Shown here in pieces: positions 11,312 through 28,211 of a stretch of 64,000 bases of DNA. Source of the stretch: Micropruina sonneratiae (GTDB lineage Bacteria > Actinomycetota > Actinomycetes > Propionibacteriales > Propionibacteriaceae); the NCBI RefSeq assembly GCF_025972045.1, contig NZ_JAPDHX010000002.1, forward strand, positions 310,001-374,000. The letters run 5' to 3'. Under the pieces are notes generated by a model, which did no database searches, was not told the DNA's origin, and saw only the letters and a program-made list of their open reading frames with translations. Made by a program: the position numbers and the translations under genes. The first letter of the stretch is position 1. Each line of letters starts with the position of its first letter.

Positions 11312-11499
11312 TGGCCGCCCTTCTGCACGAACGAGCGGACGTACTCCTCGGCGTCGGTCTCGAGCACCGAGTCGATCTCGTCGAGGATCGCGTCGTAGTC
11401 GACGGCGGGACGGGTGCCGGACGCGAAGCCGGCAGGGTTCGGGTCGGACGGCAGTTCGTCCGCACGCTGGGTGCGCTGCCGCTGTATCCGTTCCGTCAT
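11308..11499 (-). CDS. pup: Prokaryotic ubiquitin-like protein Pup
   Basis: This 63-aa, acidic, largely disordered protein has the Pup hallmark: a C-terminal helix plus GGQ end (EEYVRSFVQKGGQ). The terminal Gln must be deamidated by Dop before PafA ligates Pup to lysines of target proteins. The middle contains the ARC-binding helix (AILDEIDSVLETDAEEYV). GGGAGAGG precedes the ATG. Pup normally follows dop directly and precedes prcBA. Here it heads tyrA-cmk-der, with dop 15 kb away. A -10-like TAGGCT lies at 11522-11527 on the minus strand. Confidence 0.95.
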   Translation of the reverse strand: MTERIQRQRTQRADELPSDPNPAGFASGTRPAVDYDAILDEIDSVLETDAEEYVRSFVQKGGQ

Positions 11500-11666
11500 G
11501 ACCTCTCCCGTCCGAACGCCCAGCCTAACGGCTCAGCCGCCGCAGCACCCACCGGCACCGGCTGGGACGCCTTCGGCGGCTCCCGGCGCTACGCAGTTCT
11601 ACCCTGTTACCCGCGGGACGACCCGGAGGTACGGTGCCAGAGGTTTGACCACCTGAGGCGGGCGAG

Positions 11667-14609
11667 ATGGAGCTTCCACTGCTGCTGGCGGGTCCGATCC
11701 TGCGCAGGGTGGACCCGGGACTGGTCAGCGTCTGGACGGCCTTCAGTTCGCCGGCCGAGGTCACCCTGGAGGTGTTCGAGGGAACGGTGGCCCACGACAC
11801 CACCAACCCCGTCTTCTGCTCCAGCGCCGACCCGCCCGACCCCAACGCTCCCCCGCCCTTCCCGGGCGCCGAGGCGATCCGGATCGGCGAACACCTCTAC
11901 CTCAGCATGGTCTCGGCCCGGCTGCCACCGGCCTCCGGCAAGGTGTTCGAGCCCGACCGGCTGTACAGCTACAACCTGTGGATCGAGGCCGACGGCGGCA
12001 CCAACAACCTGCACTCGCTGAAGCTGCTGGAGACCCACCAGGTCAGCGGCACCACCGCAGGCCCGCTCGGCTACGCCGACCGCATGCTGCCGAGCTTCGC
12101 GCTGCCGCCGAGCAGTCTCGACGACCTGCAGATCGCCTACGGGTCGTGCCGCCGGCCCGGCTACGACGACGGCGACGCCTTCGCCTGGATGGACCAGTAC
12201 CTCGCCGAGCGGGTCGGCGACCCGCGAGCCCGGCTGCACCAACTGTTCCTGGGCGGCGACCAGATCTACGCCGACGACGTCGAGGACGTGCTGATGCTGC
12301 GGGTGGTCGAGCTCGGCGTCGAGCTGATCGGCAGCGCGCCCGCCGCCAACCCGCGTCCGGGAGAGCCGGCCCGGACGCCGGTGGAACGCGTCGCAGTCGA
12401 CACGGTGCGACTGCTCAAGCGCACCGTCGACCCGGCGAACCCGGACGCCGCCTACGACGACGAACCGGCCGCCGACACCGCCGCGGACCCGTTGCCCGCC
12501 GGACCGCCCTGGTTCGGGGTCGGCAACCGGCTGTACCTCACCAACTGCAGTGCCCAGCTGACCAGCGAGGACGGCAAGAACCACCTGATCAGCCTCGGCG
12601 AGTTCGCCGCCGCCTACCTGCTCTACTGGTCGCCGGCGTGCTGGGGCGTCGAGATTCCGGGCGCGCAGCTGCGCACCGGCACGGCGAACCCGTCCGGCCC
12701 GGTGCGCTGGCTGGACGTGCTCACCGACGACCAGTCCGTCGCGCTGCCGCAGCCCGGCAACCCGATCCGGCTGCCGCAGTACACCTTCACCGACGCCACC
12801 GTCCGGGCCGAGGAGATCGCGAAGGAAGCAGCCAGGCGGGCCAAGCTGAGCCAGGCCGAGCGGGACCAGGAGGACCGGGACCGCGCCAAGGACGAGGCGA
12901 AGAAGCAGGCCAAGAAGCCCAAGGTCAGCCGCCGCAACCACCGGGTGCACCGCGAGTTCCTGAGCAACCTGTGGCGGGCGCAGCGGCTGCTGGCCAACGT
13001 GCCGACCTACATGATCCTCGACGACCATGACGTCACCGACGACTACTTCCTCACCCCGATGTGGCGGCACCGAGTGCTGGGCACCGGGCTGGGCCAGACC
13101 ATCCTGACCAACGCGATGACCGCCTACGCGCTCTTCCAGGACTGGGGCAACGACCCGCGGCGCTACGACGTGACCTCGGTGACCCGTCCCGAACTCGGCG
13201 GCCAGCAGCCCGGCGACCTGCTGCTGGCGGCGCAGAAGCTGTTCCCGGAAGGGGCGACGAAGGGACCGGACGCCGCCACCGTCACCACGCTGGCGACGAT
13301 GTTCGGCCACGATCTGGACAACCAGCCGCTGCCCAACGGCGAGTTCCTGTCGGTCAAGCCGCCGATCACCTGGCACTTCACCATCGACGGGCCCAGGCAC
13401 CGGGTGGTGGCTCTCGACAACCGCACCCGGCGCAGCTACGTCAGTGAGATCGGACCGCCCGGCAACGTGTCCAAGGAGGCGCTGGACGAGCAGATCCCCA
13501 AGCCGCCGCTGCCCGCCGGGGTCGAGGTGCTGGTGGTGATCGCTCCGCTGCAGGTGATCGGCCCGCCGGTACTGGACGAGATCGTGAACCGGGCCATCTA
13601 CCGGATCTTCGACGCCGTCCACCACAACGAGGTGGCCGAGGAGAAGAAGTCCGGCACCCGGCTGATGCCCGGAACCAACCCCGACGCGCTGGAGACCTGG
13701 GCGTTGGACGAGAACACCTTCGAGTACCTGATGTCGCGGCTGGCGGACTACGGCCGGGTGGTGCTGCTCTCCGGCGACGTGCACAACGCCGCCTCCAACT
13801 TGATGAGCTACTGGCGGGGTACCAGCAACGCGCCGGCGCGAATCGCCCAGTTCACCTCCAGCGGCTTCAAGAACGTGATGCCGGTCTACCTGCAGGCCCT
13901 CGACGCCAAGGTGATGCTGTTGCAGCAGTTGCTCCGGGCCAAGCTGGGCGTCGAACGGCTGGGCTGGACGCAGCCCGAGCAGGACCTGGTGCTGCTGCCG
14001 CCCGGACGCACCGAGGACGACCTGGTGGCGATCACCCGCGCCAAGCTGCTACGCAGCCCGGTGCTGCTGCCCACCCACGGCTGGATCGACGACAACGCAG
14101 CCGGCGAGGACGACGACGCGAAGCGGTCCCGGCTGAACCCGGCCAGGCCGCCGGAGTGGCGTTGGCGGGTCACGCCGCTGCTGGACGTCCGCCCCGACGT
14201 GGTGCCCGACCCGCCGCCGGAGGATCCGAACGCGGCGCGTCCGACCCCGATCCGCGCGTTCCCGCTGGACGAGGCGACGATCGAAACCCAGGCCGCCGAC
14301 CCGGCCACCACGTTCGACGCGCTGCGCCAGGTGGCGGTGCGGCACCAGCACGCGTTGGAACGGATGCGCAACACCCGCCAGATGCTGTTCCGCTCGAACT
14401 TCGGCATCTGCCGCTTCGAGAGCACCGGCAGCCTGATCACCGCCGTCGGCGAGGTGTACACCGAGGCGGTCGACCCCGACAGCCAGCTGCCGGTGATGGC
14501 GCCGTACCTGGTGCACCGGGCGCCGCTGGGCCCGCTGTTCGAGGATCCGCCCGAGCGGCTGCGCCGGTTCGCGATCGAGCCGGCGCCGATCCCGGAGCCG
14601 ACGACATGA
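11667..14609 (+). CDS. Large PhoD-like metallophosphatase, first gene of the five-gene block
   Basis: This 980-aa protein has calcineurin-type metal-site motifs of PhoD-like phosphatases. They are AYGSCR (157-162), FLGGDQIYADD (194-204), ILDDHDVTDD (450-459) and LLSGDVHNAA (700-709). An N-terminal beta domain (1-155) precedes the catalytic core, as in PhoD. It is about twice the usual length and has no signal peptide, whereas classical PhoD enzymes are exported. A Lys/Glu/Arg/Ala-rich, probably coiled-coil segment (~380-430) is inserted before the DDHD motif, and ~270 residues follow the last motif. Its stop overlaps the start of the next gene (ATGA). Phosphatase or phosphodiesterase activity is inferred; the substrate is unknown. 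Confidence 0.8.
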   Translation: MELPLLLAGPILRRVDPGLVSVWTAFSSPAEVTLEVFEGTVAHDTTNPVFCSSADPPDPNAPPPFPGAEAIRIGEHLYLSMVSARLPPASGKVFEPDRLYSYNLWIEADGGTNNLHSLKLLETHQVSGTTAGPLGYADRMLPSFALPPSSLDDLQIAYGSCRRPGYDDGDAFAWMDQYLAERVGDPRARLHQLFLGGDQIYADDVEDVLMLRVVELGVELIGSAPAANPRPGEPARTPVERVAVDTVRLLKRTVDPANPDAAYDDEPAADTAADPLPAGPPWFGVGNRLYLTNCSAQLTSEDGKNHLISLGEFAAAYLLYWSPACWGVEIPGAQLRTGTANPSGPVRWLDVLTDDQSVALPQPGNPIRLPQYTFTDATVRAEEIAKEAARRAKLSQAERDQEDRDRAKDEAKKQAKKPKVSRRNHRVHREFLSNLWRAQRLLANVPTYMILDDHDVTDDYFLTPMWRHRVLGTGLGQTILTNAMTAYALFQDWGNDPRRYDVTSVTRPELGGQQPGDLLLAAQKLFPEGATKGPDAATVTTLATMFGHDLDNQPLPNGEFLSVKPPITWHFTIDGPRHRVVALDNRTRRSYVSEIGPPGNVSKEALDEQIPKPPLPAGVEVLVVIAPLQVIGPPVLDEIVNRAIYRIFDAVHHNEVAEEKKSGTRLMPGTNPDALETWALDENTFEYLMSRLADYGRVVLLSGDVHNAASNLMSYWRGTSNAPARIAQFTSSGFKNVMPVYLQALDAKVMLLQQLLRAKLGVERLGWTQPEQDLVLLPPGRTEDDLVAITRAKLLRSPVLLPTHGWIDDNAAGEDDDAKRSRLNPARPPEWRWRVTPLLDVRPDVVPDPPPEDPNAARPTPIRAFPLDEATIETQAADPATTFDALRQVAVRHQHALERMRNTRQMLFRSNFGICRFESTGSLITAVGEVYTEAVDPDSQLPVMAPYLVHRAPLGPLFEDPPERLRRFAIEPAPIPEPTT

Positions 14610-17600
14610 GCGCCTCGTCCGTGCTGCGCGCCCTGGCCGGCGAGGTGGTCGACTTCATCGTCTTCGTCGGCAAGCTGCTCACCGACCCCACCGCTCGCCA
14701 GGCCCGCGAGGCCATCCTGCGCGATCTCGGCGCCCAGGGCGAGGCCGGAAACCTGGTGCTGCCCACGGCCCCGCTGGCGTCGGTCCAGGCCTATCGCGAC
14801 GCCGTCGACAGCGACCTGCAGGCCGACATCGCCGCGGCGGGCGACATCGCCGTGCTGCTCGGCGCGATCATCGACCAGATCGAGTCGTGGGGCGGCAGCG
14901 ACTGGTCCGGGCGCACCGACACGTTCGTCAACAGCCTGTTCGACGTGCTCGGCAGCACCTACGTGCGGCAGCGCTGGCCCAAACTCTTCCTGATCATCGA
15001 GGCGATGGCGGTCGCCTCGGACCTGACCGGCTCGTACGGCCCCGGCGACCAGGCGCTGCCGCACCGGGCCGGCGGCTATCACGCCGGCCGGTTCTTCCAG
15101 TCCTTCGCCACCATCGTGTCGTTCGTCTGGAACCCGGGACGCACCCTGGACGACCTCGACGACACCCACGAGGGGGCGTCCGGTTCGAGCCTGCAGACCG
15201 CGCGCGACTCCGGCTTCCTGTTCGTCGACGGGTTGATCCGCGGCATCCTCGCCGCCATCGCCGTGATCGACCAGACCAAGGACGAGTTCGACGAGAACAT
15301 GCTCAGCGACGTGATCGTCGGCTGGGACGCCCCCGGGCTCGACATCGACTCCGACCAGCGGCCCGCGGCCGCCGACGTGCTCGCCAGCCGGATGGTCTCG
15401 CTGGCCCTGCGCCACGACGGCGACTCGGCCACCGAGGAACTGAAGCTGAGCTGGCTCTACCTGCCCCGCCGGATCGGCACCCCGGCCCGTCCGCACCAGG
15501 TGTTCCTGGCCCTTGGCGGCTCGCTCGGCATCGACCAGGTGCTCAACCCGCAGCACGTCAGTGCCGCGCCCGAGTGGCGGTTCCGGGCGGCGGTGAAGGG
15601 CGACGCCGGCGCGGCCCTGCTGATCGGCGGCGCCGACGGCATCCAGGCCAGCCCCGAGGCGTCCGGGCTGGAGGCGACGATCGGCTACGTCGCCAAGCCT
15701 TCCGAGAGCGGCATCAGCTACGCGCTGCCCCGAGCCACCGGCATGCGGGTGGAACTCGGCGGCATGTCGTTCCTGCTCACCCTGTCTGCCACCGGCGCGC
15801 GGGTGGTGGCCCAGTTCGACGACTGCGCCCTGGTGGTGGACGGCTCCAGCGCCGACAGCTTCGTCCGCAAGCTGCTCGGCGGCAAGCCCTACCGCACCAT
15901 GTTCGGCTTCTCGCTGGGCTACGACTCCAACCTCGGGTTCATCAAGGAGCTGCACCGGGTCAAGGGCAAGGACGCCACCACCACCCAGCCGGTGCCGTTC
16001 GACTCCACGGGACCCGCGGGGCCGTCCACTCTCGACCTGACGCTGCCGCTGGGCGGCGGCAACCTGTTGGGCAGCGGCATCAACCTGCTCGAGCTGGTGG
16101 TCCGGCTGGCCGGCCGACGGGCCGACGCCCCCGCCACCGGCTGGGCGGTGGCCGCCGGCGCGCTGGTCACGTTCAGCGCCACCTGGGGGCCGGTCTACCT
16201 CAAGGTCGACCAGCTCGGCCTGCTCGCCGAAATCGGCACGACCAAGCTGCAGAAGGACCGCAACCTGAAGCTGGTCGACGCCCACGTGGACGCCGCGCTG
16301 CCCACCGGGGTCGCGATCAACATCGACACCGGTGCGTTCAGCGGCGGTGGGGCCGTGCACCGCGATCCGGCCAGCGGTGACTACTACGGCGCCGTCGTGC
16401 TGCGGGTCGGCAAGCGGGTGACGCTCACCTGCCTGGGCCTGGTCTCCACCCGCGACGGGCAGGGCAACCCGCTCACCTCGTTCATCCTGATCGGCACCCT
16501 TGAGCACCTGGGGCTGACCGCCGGCTTCATCACCCTGGACGGCCTGGGCCTGCTGTACGCCGCGGACCGCACCCTGGACGTACCCGCGGTACGCACCGCA
16601 CTGCCCTCCGGCAAGCTGAAATACCTGCTGTTCCCGGCCGACCCGATCAAGACGCTGCCCGAGATGGTGGCCGGCCTGCGCACGTTCTTCCCGCCCCGGG
16701 AAGGCACCCACATCTACGGGTTGCTGGTCAAGCTCACCTTCGGCCCCGCCGCCAACCCGCTGCTGCGCGCCGACCTGGCGCTGATGCTCGAACGTGACGG
16801 CACCACCGACAGCTCCCGGCTGCTGGTGCTCGGCCGGGTGAGTTCGGTGCTGCCGCAGGAGAAGGCGCCGCTGCTGACCCTGAACCTCGACGTGGTGGGC
16901 GAGTTCGACTTCGACTCCGGCTTCGCCGCCCTGGACGCGGTGCTGTACGAGTCGAAACTGTTCGGCCGGTTCGCCCTGACCGGGGCGGCCGCGTTCCGGC
17001 GCGCCCGGGGTCAGGGATTCGCGCTGGCCATCGGCGGGTTCAACCCGCGCTTCACCGCGCCGGTCGGCTTCCCGGTGGTGCCCCGGGTCACGGTGGCGCT
17101 GACCAGCGGCGACAACCCGAAGCTGATCATCGAGGCCTATCTCGCGATCACCCCCAACACGCTGCAGTTCGGCGCCACCGCCTCGCTGTACGCGGCCGCC
17201 TTCGGCTTCTCGATCGAGGGCTACATCGGCTTCGACGTGCTGGTGAACTTCTGGCCGCCGCACTTCATCGCCGACTTCAAGGCCGGGATGCAGCTCAAGC
17301 GCGGCAGCCGCAGCCTGTTCAAGGTGGACGTCAGCGGCACCCTCGAGGGGCCGCTGCCGCTGCGGGTGGCCGGCAAGGCCAGCTTCGGCATCCTGTGGTG
17401 GGACTACACCGTCGGCTTCGACAAGGTGCTGATCGGCGGCAGCGATTCGCTGGTCAGCGAAGCCCTGGACGTGCTGCTCGAACTGGTCGGCCGGCTCAAC
17501 GACCCGCTCAGCTGGCGCACCGAACTGCCGACCACCGCCGGGCAGCTGGTCGGGGTCCGCACCGACCCGGCGGCCGGCGGCCTGACCTTGCACCCGTTGG

Positions 17601-18115
17601 GCCGGCTGGTCGTGCAGCAGGGATTCGTGCCGCTGAACCTCGATCGCGACATCGACCGGGTCGGCGCCTTCGTGCCCGCCCGCGAGCGCCGCTTCGCGAT
17701 CACCTCGGCCCAGCTCGGCGACCGGGTGATCACCGAGCTGGACAAGGTGCACGACGAGTTCCCCGACAGCCAGTTCTTCGAACTGACCGAGGCGCAGCGG
17801 CTGTCGGCGCCGGGAATGACGGTGCGCGAGGCCGGGGTGAGCTTCGGCAACGACGACTACGCCACGGACGCCGGCGCCGGCGTGGCCGCCCCGTTCGCCT
17901 ACACCGAGATCGTGGTCGGCCCGGACGGCGTGCCGGTGCTGCAGCCGCAACCGCAGCCGGCGCCGTCCACCCACGTGCTGGCCGGGCTGCGGATCAGCGC
18001 GTCCGCGCGGGCCCTGACCCGCACCTCGGCCACCGAGCGGTTCAGCGGTGTGCCGCGTCCGGACGCGCCGCGGCTGGCCACGCTGGGACTGGCCCGGACC
18101 GCAGGGGTGTCATGA
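14606..18115 (+). CDS. DUF6603-type large beta-rich protein
   Basis: This 1169-aa protein has an N-terminal helical part (1-120) and then long alternating beta-strand sequence. Residues ~550-935 match my recollection of the DUF6603 pattern: GFALAIGGFNPRFTAP, then KLIIEAYLAITPNTLQFGA, then GFSIEGYIGFDVLVNFWPPHFIADF, then GILWWDYTVGFD. The strand-rich, glycine-spaced repeats suggest a long beta-solenoid or groove, possibly for lipid or polymer contact; this is inference. There is no signal peptide or transmembrane helix. The start overlaps the phosphatase stop and the stop overlaps the next start, so the three genes are translationally coupled. No function is known to me for DUF6603. Confidence 0.7.
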   Translation: MSASSVLRALAGEVVDFIVFVGKLLTDPTARQAREAILRDLGAQGEAGNLVLPTAPLASVQAYRDAVDSDLQADIAAAGDIAVLLGAIIDQIESWGGSDWSGRTDTFVNSLFDVLGSTYVRQRWPKLFLIIEAMAVASDLTGSYGPGDQALPHRAGGYHAGRFFQSFATIVSFVWNPGRTLDDLDDTHEGASGSSLQTARDSGFLFVDGLIRGILAAIAVIDQTKDEFDENMLSDVIVGWDAPGLDIDSDQRPAAADVLASRMVSLALRHDGDSATEELKLSWLYLPRRIGTPARPHQVFLALGGSLGIDQVLNPQHVSAAPEWRFRAAVKGDAGAALLIGGADGIQASPEASGLEATIGYVAKPSESGISYALPRATGMRVELGGMSFLLTLSATGARVVAQFDDCALVVDGSSADSFVRKLLGGKPYRTMFGFSLGYDSNLGFIKELHRVKGKDATTTQPVPFDSTGPAGPSTLDLTLPLGGGNLLGSGINLLELVVRLAGRRADAPATGWAVAAGALVTFSATWGPVYLKVDQLGLLAEIGTTKLQKDRNLKLVDAHVDAALPTGVAINIDTGAFSGGGAVHRDPASGDYYGAVVLRVGKRVTLTCLGLVSTRDGQGNPLTSFILIGTLEHLGLTAGFITLDGLGLLYAADRTLDVPAVRTALPSGKLKYLLFPADPIKTLPEMVAGLRTFFPPREGTHIYGLLVKLTFGPAANPLLRADLALMLERDGTTDSSRLLVLGRVSSVLPQEKAPLLTLNLDVVGEFDFDSGFAALDAVLYESKLFGRFALTGAAAFRRARGQGFALAIGGFNPRFTAPVGFPVVPRVTVALTSGDNPKLIIEAYLAITPNTLQFGATASLYAAAFGFSIEGYIGFDVLVNFWPPHFIADFKAGMQLKRGSRSLFKVDVSGTLEGPLPLRVAGKASFGILWWDYTVGFDKVLIGGSDSLVSEALDVLLELVGRLNDPLSWRTELPTTAGQLVGVRTDPAAGGLTLHPLGRLVVQQGFVPLNLDRDIDRVGAFVPARERRFAITSAQLGDRVITELDKVHDEFPDSQFFELTEAQRLSAPGMTVREAGVSFGNDDYATDAGAGVAAPFAYTEIVVGPDGVPVLQPQPQPAPSTHVLAGLRISASARALTRTSATERFSGVPRPDAPRLATLGLARTAGVS

Positions 18116-20919
18116 CCGAGACGAGCCTGCTGTTCCTGCCCTGGGTGCGCCGGGGCGGCACGGTCGCCCTGCCGCCGGACGACCGGGCCGGGCATCCGGC
18201 GAACCAGGTCGGCACGACGGTCGGGGTGAGCGTGAACGGCAGCCCCGGCGCGGCGGTGCCGGTGCAGCTGCTCGGCCCGGGCGCGGTCACCGGGGTGGCG
18301 CCGCAGCAGGTGATCCGGACCGACCCGGCGCCCAACGCCCAGAACTTCGAATCGAACTACCTCGCCCTGGTCGAGTTCGACGACCCCGGCCTGCCGTGGC
18401 TGTTCACCCCGGCCTCCGCCAGCGGCGGCAGGCTGCGCCCCTGGCTGTGCCTGGTGGTGGTGCGCGAGCAGCCGGGTGTGCAACTGCAGCCTGCCGGCAC
18501 GAGTGCGCTGCCGGTGTTGCGGATCGGCGCGCCCGCCCGTCCGGAACTGGAGCTGCCCGACCTGGCCGACTCGTGGGCGTGGGCGCACGCGCAGGTGGTC
18601 ATGACCGGGGGCTCCGGCGGCGCGGACGTGGCGGCGGCGCTGGCCGGCGACCCGGCCCGCAACCTGTCCCGGCTGGTCTGCGGCCGGCTGCTGGCCGAAC
18701 AGACCGGCTACCTCGCCTGCGTGGTGCCGACCTTCGAGGCCGGCCGCCGCACCGGCCTGGGCGACGAGGTCGGCGACGCGCAAGGCCCGGCCTGGACGCG
18801 GGCCGACGGCATGGGCACCGTCGAGTTGCCGGTCTACCACCACTGGCGCTTCGCCACCGGGCCGAAGGGCGACTTCCAGTCGCTGGCGCTGGCGATCCGT
18901 GGCCGCCCGGTCGAGGACGGCTTCGGGCTGCGGCCGCTCGACCTGTCGACCGCCGGCCTCGGCCTGAGCGGCACCGACGACGCCCAGGAACTGCTCGGCG
19001 GCGCCCTGCTGGCCCTGGACGCACCCACGCAACGCTGGTCGGACGCCGCCCTGCCCGGCCGTTTCGCCACCGCTCTGCGGTCGGTGCTGAACGCGCCGGA
19101 CGCCGCTACTGCCGGTCAGCCGCTGCTCGCTCCACCGCGCTACGGTTCGGCCTACCGCTCACCCGCCGCGCTCGCGTCCGGCGCCGACCGGTGGTACGAG
19201 CAGCTGAACCTCGACCCGGCCGCCCGGGTCGCGGCCGCGCTGGGCACGCTGGTGGTGCAACGCCAGCAGGAGACCCTGGTCGGCGCGGCCTGGGACCAGT
19301 CGGTCGACCTGGGCGCTGGCACCCGGCTGGTCGGCCTGGCCGCCCTCGGGTTCGCGATGGCACAGAGCCTGCACCGCCGGCACATCGCGCCGTTGTCGCC
19401 GCAGGCCGGCCTGTTCGTGCTGGCTCCGCTGCGGGGCGCCCTGATGGCCGCGCCGGCCGCCACCGGCGGGCAGAGTTTCGCGGCGCAGTGGGCGCAGGCG
19501 GACCTGCCGGGGGCCACGCTCGGCTCGGCGGTCCGCCGGGTGACCCGGCTGCGAGGCCCAGCCGTCCGCACCGCCGAGCGGGACGGCACCATGCCGCCGC
19601 TGCTGGACTGGATCGGCAGCATGGTGCCCGGCGCGGTCGTGGCCCGCGGCTTCGGCGCTCCGGACGGTCCGCTCACCTTCGACGCGGTCGGCTCGACCCT
19701 GCCGCCGCCCGTCCCGCTGCCCTGGGCCGCGCTCACCGCAGCGGCGGTCACCGCCTCGGCGCAGCAGCCGACCTTCGGCGTGTCGGCGACCCCGGCACCC
19801 ACTGCCCCCCGACCGTTCCCTCCGCTGGGCGAGGTGGCCGGCGACCTCGGCGGCGGCGCGCTCAGCCGGCCGGCGCTCCGAGCCGACGACGGGGGCGGAC
19901 CCACCCCGGTGCGGCGGCGCCGACCCCGCGACACGCCGATCACGCCACCGACCCCTCCCACGCCGGCGACCCCCGAGGACCCGCCGCATCATCCGCCGCG
20001 CAGCGACTCGGCCGCGGCCGCACTGTTCCGCACGGTGGCCGCGAAGCAGCTGACCGGGTTCGTGGCGGCGCGGCCCGACCCGGGCGCCGTCACCGGCAGC
20101 GTCTCGCTGGACGCGTTGATGACCGAGGCGGTGGCGCTCACCGCGCCGGTGCGCACCTTCACCGCCGCCCTCGGCACGCTGTTCAGCGCTCCCCCGCCGC
20201 CGGCCACCGCCGATACTCCCCTGCCCGACCTGCGCTTCACGCCCCGCTTCGACACCCCGATGGCGCACTCGCTGGCCGAGCTGGGCCAGCACTGGCTGCT
20301 GCCCGGGCTGGCCGGAGTGCCGGCCGACACCGCACTGGCGTTACGCACCAACGGCGCCTTCGTCGAGGCCTTCATGGTGGGGCTCAACCACGAGTTCGGC
20401 CGGGAGTTGCTGTGGCGGGAGTTCCCGACCCCGCTGACCGCCACCTTCTTCGACCGGTTCTGGGACGCCGCGGTGGCACCGTCGGAGCCGCCCGACATCC
20501 CGCAGTTGGCCGACTGGGGCGAGCGCACCCTGGGTGCGCCGACGCTGCGTCCGGAGCGGTTCGTGCTGCTGCTGCGCAGCGAGCTGATGCGCCGCTTCCC
20601 CGACGCCGTCGTCAGCGCCCACCGGACGGGGTCCGATCCGGCGCAGGCGCTGCTGCCGGTGTTCCGGGGCTCGCTCGACCCCGACGTGACCTTCTTCGGC
20701 TTCACCATCGCCCTGGCCGAGGCGGACGGCTACGCGATCAGCATCGCCGAACAGCCCGGCGCCCCCCGGTTCGGCTTCGAGGTGGGGCAGGCGCCGGACG
20801 GGGTCAGCCATGCGCCGGCGACGGACGCCTCCGCGGCGGCGCTGGCGGGCCGGCTGCGCCAGCTGCCCGCCCGGATCACCATGCCGATCACGGTGCTGAT
20901 GCGGGAGCCGGAATCATGA
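18112..20919 (+). CDS. Large protein of unknown function with a proline-rich hinge
   Basis: This 935-aa protein starts at ATG 18112, overlapping the upstream stop (ATGA). The N-terminal part (1-200) is beta-rich and carries FESNYLALVEFDDPGLPWLFTPA (residues ~79-101) and LRPWLCLVVVREQPGV, segments I recall only from uncharacterised proteins in comparable clusters. A Pro/Arg-rich linker (~560-633, with PPTPPTPATPEDPPHHPP) separates it from a helical C-terminal domain containing GLNHEFGRELLWREFPT and FRGSLDPDVTFFGF. No catalytic motif, signal peptide or membrane segment is seen. Size and two-domain layout suggest a structural or scaffold role, but this is speculation. Confidence 0.7.
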   Translation: MTETSLLFLPWVRRGGTVALPPDDRAGHPANQVGTTVGVSVNGSPGAAVPVQLLGPGAVTGVAPQQVIRTDPAPNAQNFESNYLALVEFDDPGLPWLFTPASASGGRLRPWLCLVVVREQPGVQLQPAGTSALPVLRIGAPARPELELPDLADSWAWAHAQVVMTGGSGGADVAAALAGDPARNLSRLVCGRLLAEQTGYLACVVPTFEAGRRTGLGDEVGDAQGPAWTRADGMGTVELPVYHHWRFATGPKGDFQSLALAIRGRPVEDGFGLRPLDLSTAGLGLSGTDDAQELLGGALLALDAPTQRWSDAALPGRFATALRSVLNAPDAATAGQPLLAPPRYGSAYRSPAALASGADRWYEQLNLDPAARVAAALGTLVVQRQQETLVGAAWDQSVDLGAGTRLVGLAALGFAMAQSLHRRHIAPLSPQAGLFVLAPLRGALMAAPAATGGQSFAAQWAQADLPGATLGSAVRRVTRLRGPAVRTAERDGTMPPLLDWIGSMVPGAVVARGFGAPDGPLTFDAVGSTLPPPVPLPWAALTAAAVTASAQQPTFGVSATPAPTAPRPFPPLGEVAGDLGGGALSRPALRADDGGGPTPVRRRRPRDTPITPPTPPTPATPEDPPHHPPRSDSAAAALFRTVAAKQLTGFVAARPDPGAVTGSVSLDALMTEAVALTAPVRTFTAALGTLFSAPPPPATADTPLPDLRFTPRFDTPMAHSLAELGQHWLLPGLAGVPADTALALRTNGAFVEAFMVGLNHEFGRELLWREFPTPLTATFFDRFWDAAVAPSEPPDIPQLADWGERTLGAPTLRPERFVLLLRSELMRRFPDAVVSAHRTGSDPAQALLPVFRGSLDPDVTFFGFTIALAEADGYAISIAEQPGAPRFGFEVGQAPDGVSHAPATDASAAALAGRLRQLPARITMPITVLMREPES

Positions 20920-23900
20920 CCACCGCGTTGAACCTCGCGCCGCTGACCGCCGACGCCCTGCTCGCCGATCCGCGGCTGAGCGCCCCGCTGGCACCCGCCA
21001 GCCACCCGCTGGCGCTGCTGCCGGTGCGACTGGAGACCCGCTACGCCGGCGACGAACTCCTGGTGCGCATCTACCCCGACCAGGTGCACGTCGACGCGCA
21101 CGATCCACGACTGTCGGCGGCCGAGCAGCAGGCCGGGAAGGACTTCTGGCGCCTGCAATGGCGCACCGGCACGAACCTGGCCCGCCAGCAGCGGGCCTGG
21201 ACGGCACTGGCCGGCCGGTACGGCGCGGGCCGGGCGGGCTGGGTGGTGCGCGCCACCCGTCCGACGAATCCGGACCGGCGGCCGACCACCGAGGTCGCCG
21301 ACGACGCGCCGCTGCCTGCCGAACCGGCCTTTCCCGCCGTCGAGGTGTCCGACGACCGCCGCACCCCGGTCGCCCGGTTGCTGCCGCAACGCTGGACGGT
21401 GACCGCCTACGCCGGCGGGCAGGTCGTGGCGGTGGCCAGCGGCGCGCCGATCACCGCCGATCCCCCCGTCGGCCCGGACCTGTCCGCGCCGCTGGTGGCC
21501 GCCGAGGACGACCACGAGACCGCCGCCGTCGACGCCGGGATGCACTGGCTGGTCGACTTCGCCGAGGCGGAGCGGCTCGGCCTGGCCGTCCGGCTGCCGG
21601 TGAGCACGCCGGTCGACCTGTTGCTCGCCACCGGCGTCGGCGGGCAGGACGCGTCGGCCGGAGCCGACCGGCTGGCCGCACTGCTGGCCGCGCAGCGCTA
21701 CTCGGCCGGCCTGGGCCTGCTGCTGCCGGAGACGCCGACCAACAACTCCGAGGCGTCCGGGTCGGGCTGGGCGAGCACCGGCGCGGGCGCCTGGAGTGCG
21801 GCGGACGTCACGCCCGCCCCCGACTCCGCCGGATCGGCCGCGGCGCGCGCCCTCGGCGTCGACCCGGAGCTGGTGGCCGACCTGCCGAACGCCGGCGACA
21901 CCGACGCGTTGCTGGCCGCGGCGATGGGCCGGGCGCTGTGGCCCGCCACCTGGGGGTACTGGCTGACCCAGTTCGTCGGGGTGGACGCCGCCGGCCACGA
22001 CTGGGCCCGCGACTTCGCCCGGCGCTTCCTGCGACCTGAGGGCCCGCTGCCGACGTTGCGGGTCGGCCGGCAGCCCTACGGCCTGCTGCCGGTCACCGCG
22101 CTGGGCCGGTACGCCGGCGACGAGCGCACCACCCGGCTGGCCCGGGTGCTGGCCGGTGTGCGGCAGGAGGGCTGGCGACCCGCGGTGGACCTGGCGCCAC
22201 GGGTCGGGCGCAGCGACGTGGCGTCCGACCTGGTCGACGTGCTGCGGCTGGAAGGACGCTCCGACGACCTGCGGTTGCGCCGCAGCATGGGCGCCCGGTT
22301 CGCCGACAACCTGCAGCGCTTCCTGTTCCGCGAGGTGACCGGGGGCGGGTTCTGGGACGCCGCCCGCGACCGGGCGCTGCCGCTGGCCAGGGCGGCCGGC
22401 CTGGGCCTGCTGCCCGGCGCGCTCGCGGTGCACGAGCCGTCCGCTCACCCGGTCACCCTGCCGCTGGTGTCGTCCGGCGCCGAGGTGGGGTTCATCGACG
22501 CACTGCTGGCCGCCGACCTCGACGCCCTGGCGTTGGGCACGGACGCACCCGAGTCGGTGCTGGCCGCCCTGCTGCGCCACGGTCTGCTGCGCGAGCATGC
22601 CGACGCCGCCGCCCGGCTGCTGTCGCTGGGTGCGGCGGACGCCGAGCTGTACGGCTTCGGCGACGACGTCACCGGCTGGGCCGCCCGGCGCGCGACCACG
22701 CTGCCCGAGGGCGACACGGTGGCGGCCCGGCTGGCCGGCGGCACTGTCCCGGCGCTGGCCGACTTCCGCGCGGCCCTGGGCACGCTGGCGCAGGCGCCGG
22801 TGCCCGTCCTTGAGCGGCACCTGCTGGGCGCGCTGGACGCGACCTCGCACCGGCTGGACGCCTGGGTGACCGCACTGGCCACGGCCCGGTTGGGGCAGCT
22901 GCGCGCCGCGGCGCCCGACGGCGTGCTGGTCGGCGGGTACGGCTGGGTGGAGGGCGTGGCGCCGACCGCGGGCCCGGCCGCCACCGAGCTGCCCGCCGAC
23001 GAGCCGGGGCCCCTGCTGGTCGCCGCGGACGACCCCGGGTTCATCCACGCGCCGTCGGTGCAGCAGGCCCAGGTGGCGGCGTTGGCCCGCAACGCGCACC
23101 TCGCCCACGGCGGCGCCCCGACCGACCCGTTCGCGGTCAGCCTGACCTCGCAGCGCGTCCGGTTGGCCCGGTGGATCTTCGACGGCGTGCGGGCCGGCCG
23201 CAGCCTGGGTGCGGTGCTGGGCTACCTGGTCGAGCGCGATCTGCACGAACGCGATCTCGACTTCGCGATCGGACCCGCCCGCGACGTCGCGCCGCTGCCG
23301 GGCCAGGAGTCGCTGCCGGCGGAGGCGCGCAGGCTGGACGGGCTGCGGCTGCACGAGCTGTGGGCGGCCGGCGAGGACCATGCGGTCGACCATCTGGTGG
23401 CGATGAACCACACGCCGAGCGACTCCGAGCGCAGCCGTGCGGTCGCCGTGCTGCGCGGCCTCAACGCGGCCGTGGACGCCGCCGCGGACGCGTTGCAGGC
23501 CGAGCAGGTGCACCAGTTCGCCCGCGGCGACCTGAGCCGCGCGGTCAGCAGCGTCGCCGATCTCGATCGCGGCCTGGCGCCGCCGCCCGACCTGGACTTC
23601 CTGGCCACGCCGCGCACGGGTGCGGCGGTCACCCACCGGGTGCTGGTGCTCGTCGATCCGGACGCCTCCCCCGCTGCGGGGTGGACCGGCCCGACCGCCG
23701 ACCCCACCGCACCCGGCTCCACGGCAGAGCCGGCCGACCCGCTGCGGTTGCCGGCGCTTTCCGCCCGGGCCGCCGCCGAGCCGGCCCTGGACGCCTGGCT
23801 CGGCTCGCTGCTGGGCCACGCCTCCGGCCGCACGCTCACCCTGGCCGGCGACCCGTCGGTCGCGGTGCCGCTGCCCGACCTGCGGCTGGCGGCGGCCGAC

Positions 23901-25073
23901 TTCGTCCAGCTGGCCGGTGGCGGCTCGGCACTGCGGGAACTGGCCGCCCGGGCGGCGGTGGCCGCGGGCCGGGACGTGGCCGGTGCGGAGCTGGTGCCGG
24001 ACGCCGACCTTCTCGCCCTGCTCGAACTGGGCGGTTCGCTGGCCGCCCTGGTGTCGTCGGCGACCGCACTGGACGGCACCGGCCTACAGCCGCCGCACGC
24101 CGACCCGCTGCCGGGGGTCGACGTGGCCGACCTGGCCGCACGCGCCGCAGCGGCCCGGCGCGCGGTGACCGCGGCGTCCGACCGGCTGGCGGACGCCCTC
24201 GGGCGTCCCGACGACATCGCGGGGCTGCAGGCGGCGGTGGTGGCCACGTGGTCGCTGGCGGTCGGCGAGGCGGGGGTGCCGACGGCCGCGTCCGGGTGGC
24301 CGGCCGCGGCCGTCCGCGTGCTGGCCGACCTCAGCGCCCGGCTGGCCGCGCCGGTCGCGGCGAGTGATGACGCCAAGGCGCTGGGCCGTGAGCTCGCGAC
24401 GCTGCAGGGGCCGGGCTTCCTCGCCGTGCCGCGCTTCGTGGTCACCGACCCCGCGGCCCTGATCGCGTCCCGCGACGACCCCGGGATGACCGGCGGCAAC
24501 CCGCTGGCGGCCGAGGTGTGGCTGACCCGGATGGAACGGGTCCGCGAGCCGCTGGCGCGGCTCGGCATCGCCCTGCGCGAGGCCGACGCCCTTCGCGGTG
24601 GCCCCGACGCGGTGCTCGACCTGACGGTGGCGCAGGTGCCCCACCGTGCGGGCGACACCTGGAACGCGCTGCCCGCAGAACACTACGTGGACGCGGCGGC
24701 GTCCCTGTTGGTGGTCGGCGGGGCGACGCTGCGACCGGGTGCGGCGCTCGCCGGGCTGCTGATCGACGAGTGGGCCGAGGTGGTGCCTGCCGCGAGCGAG
24801 ACCACCGGGGTGGCGTTCCGCTACGACCCGCCGGAGTCGATGGCGCCGCAGGCGATCCTGCTCGCGGTGCCGCCGGTGCTCGACGAGCCGTGGACCGTGG
24901 CCTCGCTCAACCAGGTGCTGGTGGAGACCCTGGAGTTGACGCACCTGCGGGTGGTGCCGCCCGAGGCGCTGGGTGCTGCCCGCCAGTACCTGCCGGCGGC
25001 GGTGCTCGCCTACAACGCCGAGGGCGACGCACCCTCCACCGACCCGAACGCGCTGACCCCGGCGGGAGGCTGA
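20916..25073 (+). CDS. Very large protein of unknown function
   Basis: This 1385-aa protein is the largest in the block and starts at ATG 20916, overlapping the upstream stop (ATGA). The N-terminus carries HPLALLPVRLETRY and VRIYPDQVHVDAHDP (residues ~31-64), followed by a helical WRLQWRTG stretch. These are recognisable only as signatures of uncharacterised homologs. A second conserved-looking patch is LRVGRQPYGLLPVTAL (~382-397), a third is RVRLARWIFDGVRAGRSLG (~750). Most of the rest is Ala/Leu-rich helix. No nucleotide-binding, protease or nuclease motif is visible. Tight coupling to its neighbours implies fixed stoichiometry in one complex. Confidence 0.7.
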   Translation: MTTALNLAPLTADALLADPRLSAPLAPASHPLALLPVRLETRYAGDELLVRIYPDQVHVDAHDPRLSAAEQQAGKDFWRLQWRTGTNLARQQRAWTALAGRYGAGRAGWVVRATRPTNPDRRPTTEVADDAPLPAEPAFPAVEVSDDRRTPVARLLPQRWTVTAYAGGQVVAVASGAPITADPPVGPDLSAPLVAAEDDHETAAVDAGMHWLVDFAEAERLGLAVRLPVSTPVDLLLATGVGGQDASAGADRLAALLAAQRYSAGLGLLLPETPTNNSEASGSGWASTGAGAWSAADVTPAPDSAGSAAARALGVDPELVADLPNAGDTDALLAAAMGRALWPATWGYWLTQFVGVDAAGHDWARDFARRFLRPEGPLPTLRVGRQPYGLLPVTALGRYAGDERTTRLARVLAGVRQEGWRPAVDLAPRVGRSDVASDLVDVLRLEGRSDDLRLRRSMGARFADNLQRFLFREVTGGGFWDAARDRALPLARAAGLGLLPGALAVHEPSAHPVTLPLVSSGAEVGFIDALLAADLDALALGTDAPESVLAALLRHGLLREHADAAARLLSLGAADAELYGFGDDVTGWAARRATTLPEGDTVAARLAGGTVPALADFRAALGTLAQAPVPVLERHLLGALDATSHRLDAWVTALATARLGQLRAAAPDGVLVGGYGWVEGVAPTAGPAATELPADEPGPLLVAADDPGFIHAPSVQQAQVAALARNAHLAHGGAPTDPFAVSLTSQRVRLARWIFDGVRAGRSLGAVLGYLVERDLHERDLDFAIGPARDVAPLPGQESLPAEARRLDGLRLHELWAAGEDHAVDHLVAMNHTPSDSERSRAVAVLRGLNAAVDAAADALQAEQVHQFARGDLSRAVSSVADLDRGLAPPPDLDFLATPRTGAAVTHRVLVLVDPDASPAAGWTGPTADPTAPGSTAEPADPLRLPALSARAAAEPALDAWLGSLLGHASGRTLTLAGDPSVAVPLPDLRLAAADFVQLAGGGSALRELAARAAVAAGRDVAGAELVPDADLLALLELGGSLAALVSSATALDGTGLQPPHADPLPGVDVADLAARAAAARRAVTAASDRLADALGRPDDIAGLQAAVVATWSLAVGEAGVPTAASGWPAAAVRVLADLSARLAAPVAASDDAKALGRELATLQGPGFLAVPRFVVTDPAALIASRDDPGMTGGNPLAAEVWLTRMERVREPLARLGIALREADALRGGPDAVLDLTVAQVPHRAGDTWNALPAEHYVDAAASLLVVGGATLRPGAALAGLLIDEWAEVVPAASETTGVAFRYDPPESMAPQAILLAVPPVLDEPWTVASLNQVLVETLELTHLRVVPPEALGAARQYLPAAVLAYNAEGDAPSTDPNALTPAGG

Positions 25074-25074
25074 G

Positions 25075-26808
25075 ATGGCGTCGATCACCACCTTCTTCCG
25101 GCTCGAACCGGACCCGCTGCGCCCTGACGTGACGCTCGGCGCCACCGCTCCGGTGCACGACCCGCTGTGGCTGCTGGGCCGGCAATGGCAGACCGGCGAG
25201 TTCGCCGGTCAGGACGGCGGCAGCCCGGTGCTGGCCCGGTGGCGCGGCGTGGCCGCCGCCCCGACCCGGTTCGTCCCCGGCGCGGTACCGCCCGAGACAC
25301 AGACCCAGGCGCCGCGGTTCGAGGCGTCCGCGGCGCCGCTGGAAACCCTGATCGAACGGGTCGGCGCCCCGCTGCCGGCCACCGCGGACGGCCTCGCCGG
25401 CCTCAGACTCGGAGTGGACACCGGTCGGCTGTTCCTGCGGGTGTTGGCCGGCCAGAGCGTCTCCCGCGACTACGCGCCCGCACTGGTGGCCGCCTTCGCC
25501 GTCCCGGTCTACCCCGACGAGGTGCTGGCCGCGACCGATCCAGCGAGCGCCGGCTTCGCCCGGCTGCACGGTGGCCGCAGCCTGGACGGCCGCCGGTTGC
25601 GCGGCGAGCTGGCCGGACGTCCGCTGCCCCGGTTCGGCGAGCAGGTGGCGCCCGCCGACCTGGCCGAGGTGCGGGCGGCCTGCGCGGACTGGCTCGCCCT
25701 GGTCGCCGACCTGTTCGCCGACGCCGACCCGGCCGCCGCCAGCTGGCAGCCGACCCGGTTCGAATACACCGCGTCGATGGCGGCCCGGCTCGGGACCGGC
25801 CCGTTCGACGAGACCACGCTGACCGCACAGCGCTACGACAGCGATGTGCTCGACTGGTACGAGTTCGACGTCAACGGCGAGGTGAACCTCGGCACCACCC
25901 CGGCCGAGGCGGGCGAGCAGCTGGTCCGCACCGTGATGCCCGCGCCGGTCACCGCGCCGGGGCTGCCGGCGCGCCGCTTCTGGGAGTTCGAGGACGCCGC
26001 GGTCAACCTGTCCGCGCTGGCACCGGCCGAGACCGACCTGGCCCAGGTGCTGCTCATCGAAACCCTGTCCGGCTACGGCAACGACTGGTTCGTGATCGGG
26101 GTGGACCTGCCGGTCGGACGGCTGGTGCGCACCGCGTCGCTGGTCGTCACCGACACCTTCGGGGTACGCACCCTGTTGCGTCCGGTCGGCACCGGCTCGG
26201 CGCAGGCGGAGGGCTGGAGCATGTTCCAGCAGGCGCTGCCCTACGACGCCGCGGCGCCCGAGGGCGCCACCGTCCGCAACCTGCTCTACCTGGCGCCCCG
26301 GCTCGCCCGTCCGGTGGTGGGGCCGGTGGTCGAGGAGGTGCTGCTGGCCCGCGACGAGCAGGCCAACCTCGGCTGGGCGATCGAGCGGATCGTCGAGTCG
26401 CCGCTGCAGTCGGCGGTGCCGCTCAGCCAGACCAGGCCGGCCGACCCACCCGGCGACCCGGACGTCGCCCCCGACTACCACCTGGCCCAGGCGCCGCCGC
26501 CGCACTGGATTCCGCTGCTGCCGGTGCGCGCCGGGGCCGGCGAACAGATCGTGCTCGCCCGCGGCTCGGTGCTCGACGTGGCGGGCGGCCGCCTGGTGCA
26601 CAGCGTCACGGACCTGCTCGGCGGCGGCCCGGACGGGGCGCTGCTGATTCCCGAGGAGGAGGTGCCGGTCGGCGGGCTGATCGTGCAGCGCAGCTACCAG
26701 GCCGCCCGCTGGACCGACGGCACCCTGCACGTCTGGGCGGCACATCGCACCAGGGTGGCCGAGTCGGTGCCGCCCAGCGGCGTCCGGTACGACTTCCTGG
26801 TGGAGTAA
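25075..26808 (+). CDS. Protein of unknown function, last gene of the block
   Basis: This 577-aa protein starts one base after the upstream stop. The N-terminus has FFRLEPDPLRPDV and DPLWLLGRQWQTGEFAGQDGG (residues ~29-49), a Trp-rich patch I recall from uncharacterised proteins in similar clusters. The middle (~230-420) is beta-rich (YEFDVNGEVNLG, NDWFVIGVDLPVG). A C-terminal domain ends in RSYQAARWTDGTLHVWAAH. No signal peptide, transmembrane helix or catalytic motif is seen. A REP-like palindrome variant lies 12 bases after the stop and may end the transcript. Confidence 0.7.
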   Translation: MASITTFFRLEPDPLRPDVTLGATAPVHDPLWLLGRQWQTGEFAGQDGGSPVLARWRGVAAAPTRFVPGAVPPETQTQAPRFEASAAPLETLIERVGAPLPATADGLAGLRLGVDTGRLFLRVLAGQSVSRDYAPALVAAFAVPVYPDEVLAATDPASAGFARLHGGRSLDGRRLRGELAGRPLPRFGEQVAPADLAEVRAACADWLALVADLFADADPAAASWQPTRFEYTASMAARLGTGPFDETTLTAQRYDSDVLDWYEFDVNGEVNLGTTPAEAGEQLVRTVMPAPVTAPGLPARRFWEFEDAAVNLSALAPAETDLAQVLLIETLSGYGNDWFVIGVDLPVGRLVRTASLVVTDTFGVRTLLRPVGTGSAQAEGWSMFQQALPYDAAAPEGATVRNLLYLAPRLARPVVGPVVEEVLLARDEQANLGWAIERIVESPLQSAVPLSQTRPADPPGDPDVAPDYHLAQAPPPHWIPLLPVRAGAGEQIVLARGSVLDVAGGRLVHSVTDLLGGGPDGALLIPEEEVPVGGLIVQRSYQAARWTDGTLHVWAAHRTRVAESVPPSGVRYDFLVE

Positions 26809-26819
26809 CGCCACCCGGG

Positions 26820-26840
26820 ATCCCGGGGCACGCCCGGGAT
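26820..26840. repeat. REP-like palindrome variant after the five-gene block
   Basis: ATCCCGGGG-CAC-GCCCGGGAT is followed by GACG. The arms differ from the main REP-like element by one extra G/C, but the flanking GACG is kept. It marks the right end of the block, between convergent genes, and is a candidate bidirectional terminator. Confidence 0.6.
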
Positions 26841-26876
26841 GACGCAGATCCACGCCGTCATCCCGCACCCGCCGGG

Positions 26877-28211
26877 TCAGCCGCCCAGGTCGGACGGCAT
26901 GGTGTGCCGGTACGGGTCGTCCAGGCGCAGTCGACGGCTCCCCTGGCGGGTGCTCAGCAGCACCCACGACCAATCCAACGCCAGCACCGCGTCCGGGTTC
27001 TCCCGGACCAGCCCGCCGCGCACCCGGGCGCGGGTGTCGGGCGGCGGCTCGTCGATCGCCCGCTCCACCTCGGCGTCGGTGCACAGCAGCGGCATCCGTC
27101 CGGCCCGCACCAGGGCGGCGTAGGGGCTGACCCCGTCGTCCAGGTCGGCCCAGGCCAGGTCGAGCTGGGCGAGGCGTGGGTGGTCCCAGCCCAGGACGTC
27201 ACGGGCCCTGAACCTCTCCAACAGGTTGAGCTTCGCGACCCAGTCCAGTTCGACGCAGCCGCTCGGGTCGGACGCCAGCCGGTCGAGGGTCTCCGACCAC
27301 AGCGTCATGACGTCGGGGTCGCCAAGACCCGAAGCCTGTAGTTGAGCGTGACAGTCCCGCTGCACCTCGATCGCTGTCACCCGGCGTCCGTCGGCCAACT
27401 CGAGTCTCGCCGTGCAGCTCAGGTCGCGACTCACCGTCTGCACCGCCCCCAGCGGGTCGGCCAGCCGTACCGGTCGCAGCACGCCCTGCTCGATGCCGGC
27501 CAGCACCGCGGCGGCCGTGCCCAGCTTGAGCAGGGTGGCGGTCTGGGAACGATTGGCGTCCCCGGCGATCAGATGCAGCCGCCGCCAGCGCGAGCGGTCG
27601 GCATGCGGCTCGTCGCGGGTGTTCACCAGGGGGCGCCGGATCGTGGTCTCCAGCCCGGTGATCGCCTCGAAGAAGTCGGCACGCTGGGACAGCTGGAAGC
27701 CGGGCCGCTGGCTCGCCTGGCCCAGGCCGACCCGCCCTGCCCCGGTGAACACCGGGCGGGTCACCAGGTAGGGCAGCAGACCCTCGACGATCCGCTCCCA
27801 GGGCGTGGCCCGGCCGAGCAGGTGGTTCTCGTGGTAGCCGTAGGACGCGCCCTTGCCGTCGGTGTTGTTCTTGAACAGCCGGACCGGGGTGCCGAGCCGC
27901 TGCCCCGCCCTGGACGCGGCGCGGGCCACGATCGCATCGCCCGCGAGATCGGCCAGCAGGGCGGCCCGCGGCGACGTGGTCTCCGGTGTGGAGTACTCCG
28001 GGTGGGCGTGGTCGACGTAGAGCCGGGCGCCGTTGCCGAGGAAGCGGTTGTGCGCGTCCTCGAACGGGATCGGGTCGCCGGAGTCGCGCCGGGCCAGGGT
28101 CGCGGGGCCGTCGTGGGCCTCCACCACCGCCGCCGACAGCACGGTCGGGTGCAGGTCGCCACGGCCGGGCGCCAGAATGCCGTACTCGGTTTCGGTCCCC
28201 AGCAGCGGCAT
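26877..28211 (-). CDS. dop: Pup deamidase/depupylase Dop
   Basis: This 444-aa protein of the glutamine-synthetase-like Dop/PafA family has GTETEYGI (residues ~5-12), NGARLYVDHAHPEYS (with the catalytic Asp), KNNTDGKGASYG, GFQLSQRADF, NTRDEPHAD and GDANRSQT. The DHAHPEYS and DGKGASYG forms favour Dop over PafA. Dop converts the Pup C-terminal Gln to Glu and also removes Pup from substrates. Only ~47 residues separate GTETEYGI from NGARLY, against roughly 80 in mycobacterial Dop, so the Dop-loop is shortened. ATG 28211 is chosen because a TACCAT -10 box ends 7 bases upstream; ATG 28220 is the alternative. Confidence 0.9.
   Translation of the reverse strand: MPLLGTETEYGILAPGRGDLHPTVLSAAVVEAHDGPATLARRDSGDPIPFEDAHNRFLGNGARLYVDHAHPEYSTPETTSPRAALLADLAGDAIVARAASRAGQRLGTPVRLFKNNTDGKGASYGYHENHLLGRATPWERIVEGLLPYLVTRPVFTGAGRVGLGQASQRPGFQLSQRADFFEAITGLETTIRRPLVNTRDEPHADRSRWRRLHLIAGDANRSQTATLLKLGTAAAVLAGIEQGVLRPVRLADPLGAVQTVSRDLSCTARLELADGRRVTAIEVQRDCHAQLQASGLGDPDVMTLWSETLDRLASDPSGCVELDWVAKLNLLERFRARDVLGWDHPRLAQLDLAWADLDDGVSPYAALVRAGRMPLLCTDAEVERAIDEPPPDTRARVRGGLVRENPDAVLALDWSWVLLSTRQGSRRLRLDDPYRHTMPSDLGG

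Follow-up and report, generated by a model that had tools for sequence, protein, structure and literature searches.

Four co-inherited giant proteins next to a clade-specific 5′ gene in Micropruina sonneratiae suggest an undescribed machine that carries or displays enzymes

The stretch of the Micropruina sonneratiae genome analysed here (64,000 nucleotides; assembly GCF_025972045.1, contig NZ_JAPDHX010000002.1, positions 310,001 to 374,000; referred to as the window) contains a block of five forward-strand genes encoding giant proteins, numbered 1 to 5 in the direction of transcription (Table 1). ATGA overlaps at positions 14606, 18112 and 20916 join the first four genes, and genes 4 and 5 are separated by one base; these junctions, like the coordinates and the five protein lengths, are exactly as an earlier sequence-only reading of the window had given them. 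The GC (guanine plus cytosine) content of third codon positions is 0.94-0.96 across all five genes and each of them has protein homologues in other phyla, and therefore the genes are considered real and not the product of chance. Gene 2, which had looked like DUF6603, is a full member of that family by profile score (PF20248; E 1.5e-93, 314.6 bits against a cut-off of 27). The signatures quoted earlier for genes 3, 4 and 5 are present at residues 89, 50 and 29, respectively, and the description of these genes as uncharacterised holds: Pfam, NCBIfam and PADLOC yield nothing above cut-off, PHROGs yields nothing below E 0.35, and the weak match of gene 3 to TIGR02265 (19.6 bits) lies below the cut-off of 25. 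For the five block proteins as a whole, PADLOC, NCBIfam and PHROGs gave no match above a cut-off, and the PDB, searched by sequence with the gene 1 protein and with a profile for each of genes 2-5, contained no match that merited follow-up.

Genes 2-5 form a core that is co-inherited in a fixed order. A genome collection of 84,980 species was scanned once with the gene 4 alignment (one peptide pattern), which yielded 69 loci: 56 in Actinomycetota, 8 in Pseudomonadota, 2 in Myxococcota and one each in Acidobacteriota, Chloroflexota and an archaeon. In 55 of the 69 the four genes are collinear on one strand, 13 are incomplete and run into a contig end, and the remaining one, in Streptomyces rubellomurinus (L075), is the sole rearranged case, genes 4-5 facing genes 3-2 on the opposite strand. 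According to our own gene calls, 36 of 55 loci have genes 2 and 3 overlapping or touching, and 23 of 42 have genes 3 and 4 doing so; the distance between genes 4 and 5 is below 30 bases in 35 of 42. Two further counts test co-occurrence independently of gene 4 as the starting point. The same 13 of 72,556 plasmid records match both gene 2 and gene 3, gene 4 is found in 12 of these, and gene 5 is found in all 13 and in one more (Streptomyces anthocyanicus, where it is alone), so that all four core genes are present in 12 of the 14 plasmid records with gene 5. In a sample of 296 genomes from the phylum, gene 5 and gene 3 were each found in 7 and DUF6603 in 9; six genomes have all three. Outside these six, G269 has gene 5 alone, located on a 3-kb contig, G261 has DUF6603 and a distant gene 3, and G204 and G246 have DUF6603 alone. 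In total, the range of the core covers Actinomycetota, Pseudomonadota, Myxococcota, Acidobacteriota, Chloroflexota, a Gemmatirosa plasmid and haloarchaea. Literature searches, which covered openly licensed papers, found no description of the gene quartet and no paper that names DUF6603 or PF20248.

Two unusual records of the core are mentioned separately. Homologues of genes 3-5 with a partial gene 2 are present in MT835531.1 (L012), filed as 'UNVERIFIED: Bacteriophage sp.' from human faeces, which we guess to be a bacterial contig filed as phage. One genome (G323) has two different gene 5 copies, on contigs L100 and L106, and therefore one strain may carry two such clusters.

Within the genus Micropruina, the block is a unit that is present or absent at one site. 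Gene 5 is found in four of six genomes, and in both genomes lacking it the genes that flank the block in the window, the right one of which (26877-28211, minus strand) is presumably Dop/PafA-like, are direct neighbours, with 25 and 462 bases between them. The best explanation is that the block is an acquired module. Its GC content is 0.743, compared with 0.697 in the remainder of the window, and a quick tree built from 63 gene 5 proteins has one Mesorhizobium row nested in a Streptomyces clade with a support of 100 (Shimodaira-Hasegawa-like approximate likelihood ratio test). A repeat at the insertion site was considered as a cause and rejected. Repeats of GGGGACGGTTCC lie at the block site in relatives of the window's left junction (L138, 2682-2769; L140, 6803-7196, there in both orientations), both at a site with the block (Micropruina glycogenica) and at one without it (G296), but the repeat is not found in the window, allowing up to one mismatch. 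On a Streptomyces europaeiscabiei plasmid typed as mobilizable (L153), the quartet lies between tyrosine recombinase genes; such a plasmid is a possible route of spread for the quartet.

The relation of gene 1 to the core is of a different kind. Its PhoD-like metal motifs had been recognised correctly: GGDQIYADD, DDHDVTDD and SGDVH begin at residues 196, 452 and 702, and Ser160, Cys161, Arg162, Asp198, Tyr201, Asp203, Asp204, Asp452, Asp453, His454, Asp458, Asp459, Gly703, Asp704, Val705 and His706 are invariant in all 12 aligned homologues. Metal binding is assigned to residues among these by analogy with the PhoD family. Against the PhoD profile (PF09423) gene 1 scores 16.9 bits, under the curated cut-off of 27, and it is therefore called PhoD-like only, and all 12 aligned homologues match the same profile at E <= 0.1 (best 2.4e-11). 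Gene 1 was detected in 14 of the 69 core loci; it is also found on a Salinigranum plasmid and, adjoining the core, on a Streptomyces longwoodensis plasmid. Twenty plasmid records contain a relative of gene 1, of which four have the core (Salinigranum, Streptomyces longwoodensis) and 16 have no core gene. The core-free relatives are distant, at about 27-31 percent identity, and in the two such records inspected the gene is an ordinary single phosphatase gene amid unrelated genes. The earlier view that the block is built around a PhoD-like phosphatase is not supported, given these numbers; PhoD is not the centre of the block, and gene 1 is one occupant of a variable 5′ position. The wider proposal is borne out: the block appears to be a system of several genes for giant proteins that has not been described, with no known domains save DUF6603 and PhoD and no visible export signal, and its genes 2-5 are co-inherited across phyla. 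As to whether the five families occur independently of each other, the neighbourhood survey retains genes 2-5 as a core, complete in the 55 loci mentioned, and excludes gene 1 from it.

What occupies this 5′ position, or slot, changes from lineage to lineage, and hydrolases of several kinds are among the occupants. Pfam was run on 20 genes located directly 5′ of gene 2, picked from the listed neighbours of the core loci, and 13 of them gave a match (Table 1). Further neighbours of the core loci contain an endonuclease/exonuclease/phosphatase domain, hemopexin repeats, peptidoglycan-binding domains and a weak transglycosylase match. The plasmid of Streptomyces sp. NBC_01724, for which an independent NCBI annotation exists, has a WD40 gene directly downstream of the core, and peptidoglycan-binding, PLD-like, DUF2235 and Ig-like genes nearby.

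Table 1. The five-gene block in the window, its junctions, and the Pfam assignments of genes occupying the slot 5′ of gene 2 in other core loci (PG, peptidoglycan; aa, amino acids)
Feature	Position in window, or locus	Strand	Description
Gene 1 (slot gene)	11667..14609	+	PhoD-like metallo-phosphodiesterase, 980 aa
Gene 2 (core)	14606..18115	+	DUF6603 protein, 1169 aa
Gene 3 (core)	18112..20919	+	935 aa, without Pfam family above cut-off
Gene 4 (core)	20916..25073	+	1385 aa, without family
Gene 5 (core)	25075..26808	+	577 aa, without family above cut-off
Left junction of presence/absence unit	11500..11666	.	Next gene leftward is 11308-11499 (-)
Right junction of presence/absence unit	26809..26876	.	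Next gene rightward is 26877-28211 (-)
Slot, PLD	L040, L086		Pfam
Slot, trypsin-like	L041		Pfam, just under cut-off
Slot, subtilase S8	L047		Pfam
Slot, M64	L065, L070		Pfam
Slot, M14	L089		Pfam
Slot, M23	L064; L077		Pfam; L077 with additional PG-binding domain
Slot, LGFP	L053		Pfam
Slot, PG-binding	L056		Pfam
Slot, WD40	L044		Pfam
Slot, ferritin-like	L081		Pfam; 244 bases from gene 2

The AlphaFold model of gene 2 (46 rows) has a mean predicted local distance difference test score (pLDDT) of 73, mostly 85-96 across residues 530-940, and shows a helical N-terminal part followed by 38 predicted strands at residues 264-943. The strands show an alternation of hydrophobic and polar residues of 2.75 against 1.52 in shuffled sequences (35 strands; 9 individually at p < 0.05), and DUF6603 is accordingly predicted to be a long amphipathic beta sheet. 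A fold search of the PDB with this model returned mainly outer-membrane barrels and ushers (best Z 13.9, root-mean-square deviation (rmsd) 15.0 Å over 332 residues), with apolipoprotein B and the LPD-3 complex in lower rows of the lists.

The N-terminal module of gene 3 is shared with a second, divergent type of DUF6603 cluster (hhalign 92.7 and 97.1 percent), and some gene 3 homologues contain inserted FG-GAP repeats. Gene 5 is characterised by the motifs DPLWLLxRQWQxGEF and RDExANLAWAVE, and in 13 of the 55 complete loci gene 4 is fused to it. The gene 5 model (mean pLDDT 77) found no match at E 0.001 in the PDB or BFVD and none at Z >= 5, and profile-profile comparison among genes 3, 4 and 5 gave no significant homology. 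Kinship between genes 4 and 5 was considered: four fused proteins among the matches listed contain, within their gene 4 part, a match to the stretch at about 96-199 of the gene 5 profile (E about 1e-8 to 1e-9), and the best hhalign alignment of the two genes, itself insignificant, falls at the same place. The iterated profile may have absorbed that stretch and no claim is made. The haloarchaeal copies (L011, L014, L087) have much larger gene 4 homologues, of 2322 to 3378 amino acids by our own gene calls, and lamin-tail domains are found in gene 5 of L011 and L087. The second type of DUF6603 cluster (L093, L094 and L095, in genomes G204, G246 and G261) encodes other giant proteins, with DUF6603 proteins of up to 3233 amino acids; gene 3-like N-terminal modules are present in L093 and L095, and L093 has a weak MBL-fold match. 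In L095, an Hcp gene of the type VI secretion system (T6SS; PF05638, E 1.6e-14) adjoins the DUF6603 cluster and a second Hcp lies about 2.5 kb off, which is a lead for further study and not evidence concerning the block in the window.

What function could such an arrangement perform? A constant core accompanied by a slot enzyme that varies by clade is the signature of a modular machine, and hence the four-protein core with its single clade-specific slot gene suggests an undescribed machine that carries or displays enzymes. The architecture is a matter of observation; from it we infer assembly and delivery in the following way. The five proteins would be translated in a coupled fashion and would assemble in the cytoplasm into one large complex, in which the DUF6603 protein may provide a long amphipathic beta sheet for contact with lipid or membrane and genes 3-5 may supply scaffold and binding parts. 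The slot enzyme would be the working part, active outside the cell that makes it on the envelope polymers of other cells or on surrounding polymers, and would leave the cell without a Sec or Tat signal, by lysis or by some other route. For the window's genome, this part would be the PhoD-type phosphodiesterase, and its likely substrates would be of the class known for Bacillus PhoD, teichoic-acid-like or other phosphodiesters. That core and slot enzyme form one modular complex whose enzyme acts outside the producing cell is considered possible rather than probable. A carrier acting on other cells is the best single reading because many slot enzymes target envelope polymers, namely peptidoglycan, phospholipid and protein and, for PhoD, presumably phosphodiester polymers. 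It is doubtful whether one can go further and see in the block a new self-contained delivery machine of bacteria and haloarchaea, not derived from phage, in which four giant structural proteins would form a particle or conduit, the DUF6603 sheet would be membrane-active, and one lineage-specific hydrolase would be delivered onto or into other cells without a known secretion system.

Several observations weigh against the carrier. No export route was found by the hydropathy scan or with the Hcp and phage-type sheath profiles, and the likeness of DUF6603 to beta barrels carries a very high rmsd of 15 Å. Seven of the 20 scanned slot genes have no Pfam family, the WD40 and ferritin-like occupants are not hydrolases, and five loci (L051, L059, L071, L072, L091) lack a called gene on the same strand in the 200 bases 5′ of gene 2. 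The matches listed for 77 contiguous neighbours speak for the carrier, with PG_binding_1 in 6 genes, WD40 in 5 and Hemopexin and Big_3_5 in 4 each, against at most one each among those listed for 77 non-contiguous control genes of the same loci, but these counts are not independent, several coming from L053 or related Streptomyces; subtilase (S8) and Tle1-like phospholipase domains occur once each among the control genes. Finally, the slot type is largely bound to clade, with 11 changes for 11 named types (minimum 10). With one change above this minimum, exchange of the slot is taken to be old and an ancestral PhoD slot is possible. PhoD rows appear in three parts of the gene 5 tree and M64 in two; the three PhoD positions fit an ancestral PhoD slot equally well as repeated gain.

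A secreted nutrient complex ranks close behind the carrier acting on other cells. The core would then belong to a secreted or cell-surface complex for gathering nutrients or for adhesion, comparable to a soluble cellulosome, whose slot enzyme feeds its maker and attacks nothing. This is conceivable, if doubtful: the FG-GAP repeats of gene 3 homologues, the lamin-tail domains of haloarchaeal gene 5 and the hemopexin and Ig-like neighbours are all adhesion-type modules, and many carriers, judging by the titles and sources of their records, come from soil, water or salt habitats, but signal peptides were not seen in a crude scan and several neighbours are directed at murein, a poor choice of nutrient.

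Signal peptides and membrane helices were searched for by simple hydropathy, and the earlier statement that the block proteins have neither stands for signal peptides in all five; no clear membrane helix was seen either, with the reservation that residues 203-221 of gene 2 form a borderline hydrophobic stretch (mean 2.08). The first 40 residues of 28 accessory proteins were scanned in windows of 12 residues, and mean hydropathy stays at or below 1.38 in all of these windows. Five of 88 contiguous neighbours have signal-like N-termini (above 1.8), compared with 76 of 376 other genes, a difference counted in favour of the carrier; the criterion is crude, since 21 of 257 core genes also pass it, by eye mostly through short hydrophobic helices. 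The lack of visible export signals agrees with a complex that stays in the cytoplasm for storage, stress or lipid handling, in which DUF6603 would be a lipid-holding sheet and the slot gene would modify the cargo. The single hydrophobic face predicted for the DUF6603 strands and the presence of apolipoprotein B and the LPD-3 complex in its fold lists point in the same direction, but the peptidoglycan-binding, M23 and LGFP neighbours are hard to fit inside a cytoplasm, and this explanation is regarded as unlikely.

Defence had been left open by the sequence-only reading; a defence against phage, or another one inside the cell, in which a constant core would act as sensor and the effectors would vary, is quite improbable. 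The constant-plus-variable logic, the patchy distribution and the presence or absence at one site do resemble defence loci, but none of the five block proteins matches a PADLOC model at E <= 1 (library of 2023; the surrounding genes were not surveyed for defence islands), Pfam found no nucleotide-binding domain in the core, and envelope hydrolases would be unusual effectors.

Injection systems were approached through their marker proteins. The genome of the window (G000; 17 contigs, completeness 100) has no match to Hcp (PF05638) or to the phage-type sheath (PF17482), T6SS sheath families not having been searched; among 17 genomes that carry core or DUF6603 genes, Hcp was found in 5 and the phage-type sheath in 8. 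Two gene 5 patterns gave a single short match in a viral collection of 2.9 million contigs, and the core was found in one of 50,697 phage records, an unverified one. A contractile or phage-derived injection system, or a set of its effectors, is therefore highly improbable, in spite of the sheath matches and of the Hcp gene adjoining one divergent DUF6603 cluster (L095), given the negative result in the own genome, the near absence of the core from viral collections and a gene 5 model without a viral fold match at E 0.001. The last two results also led us to reject a phage origin of the block. As a separate observation, Hcp-type genes in three Micropruina loci (L147, L148 and L149, in G299, G298 and G300) stand beside what by eye appears to be a shared neighbour family, and in G298 a phage-type sheath match is located on the same contig as the Hcp-type gene.

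The core is made up of four giant families, of which three have no Pfam match above cut-off, and they occur as a fixed quartet in no fewer than five bacterial phyla as well as in haloarchaea. Should the role of the quartet be to deliver or display hydrolases, microbes would have a new way of acting on other cells or on polymers; should it instead handle lipids, it would contain a new large beta-sheet lipid protein beyond the known families. The quartet is a well-defined target for further study, and natural block-free relatives can serve as controls.

Comparison with known systems starts from the two recognisable families. Classical PhoD has an N-terminal export signal. Gene 1 resembles the PhoD family (PF09423) in its metal-site motifs, kept in all 12 homologues, each of which matches the profile; it differs in its divergence, its length, the overlap with a core gene and the lack of an N-terminal export signal in the hydropathy scan. 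Gene 2 belongs fully to DUF6603, a family without an assigned function. Through its predicted succession of many antiparallel amphipathic strands it is comparable to large amphipathic beta-sheet proteins, such as LptD-type outer-membrane barrels, bridge-like lipid transfer proteins and apolipoprotein B, but its best match has the high rmsd given above and none of these proteins is among its nine PDB sequence matches at E <= 1. Outer-membrane barrels differ from it also in their setting: the carriers of the block are mostly actinomycetes, which mostly have no outer membrane of this kind. Polymorphic toxin systems and PVC/eCIS (Photorhabdus virulence cassette/extracellular contractile injection) systems combine a constant part with variable enzymatic parts that include peptidases and lipases (PMC3482391). 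The block differs from polymorphic toxins in that its variable part is encoded by a gene of its own, located 5′ of gene 2, and is not the C-terminal toxin of the same protein, and from PVC/eCIS systems in that genes 3-5 have no Pfam match to injection-system parts and the own genome has no Hcp or phage-type sheath match. What the block appears to share with both is the logic of a constant part served by variable ones.

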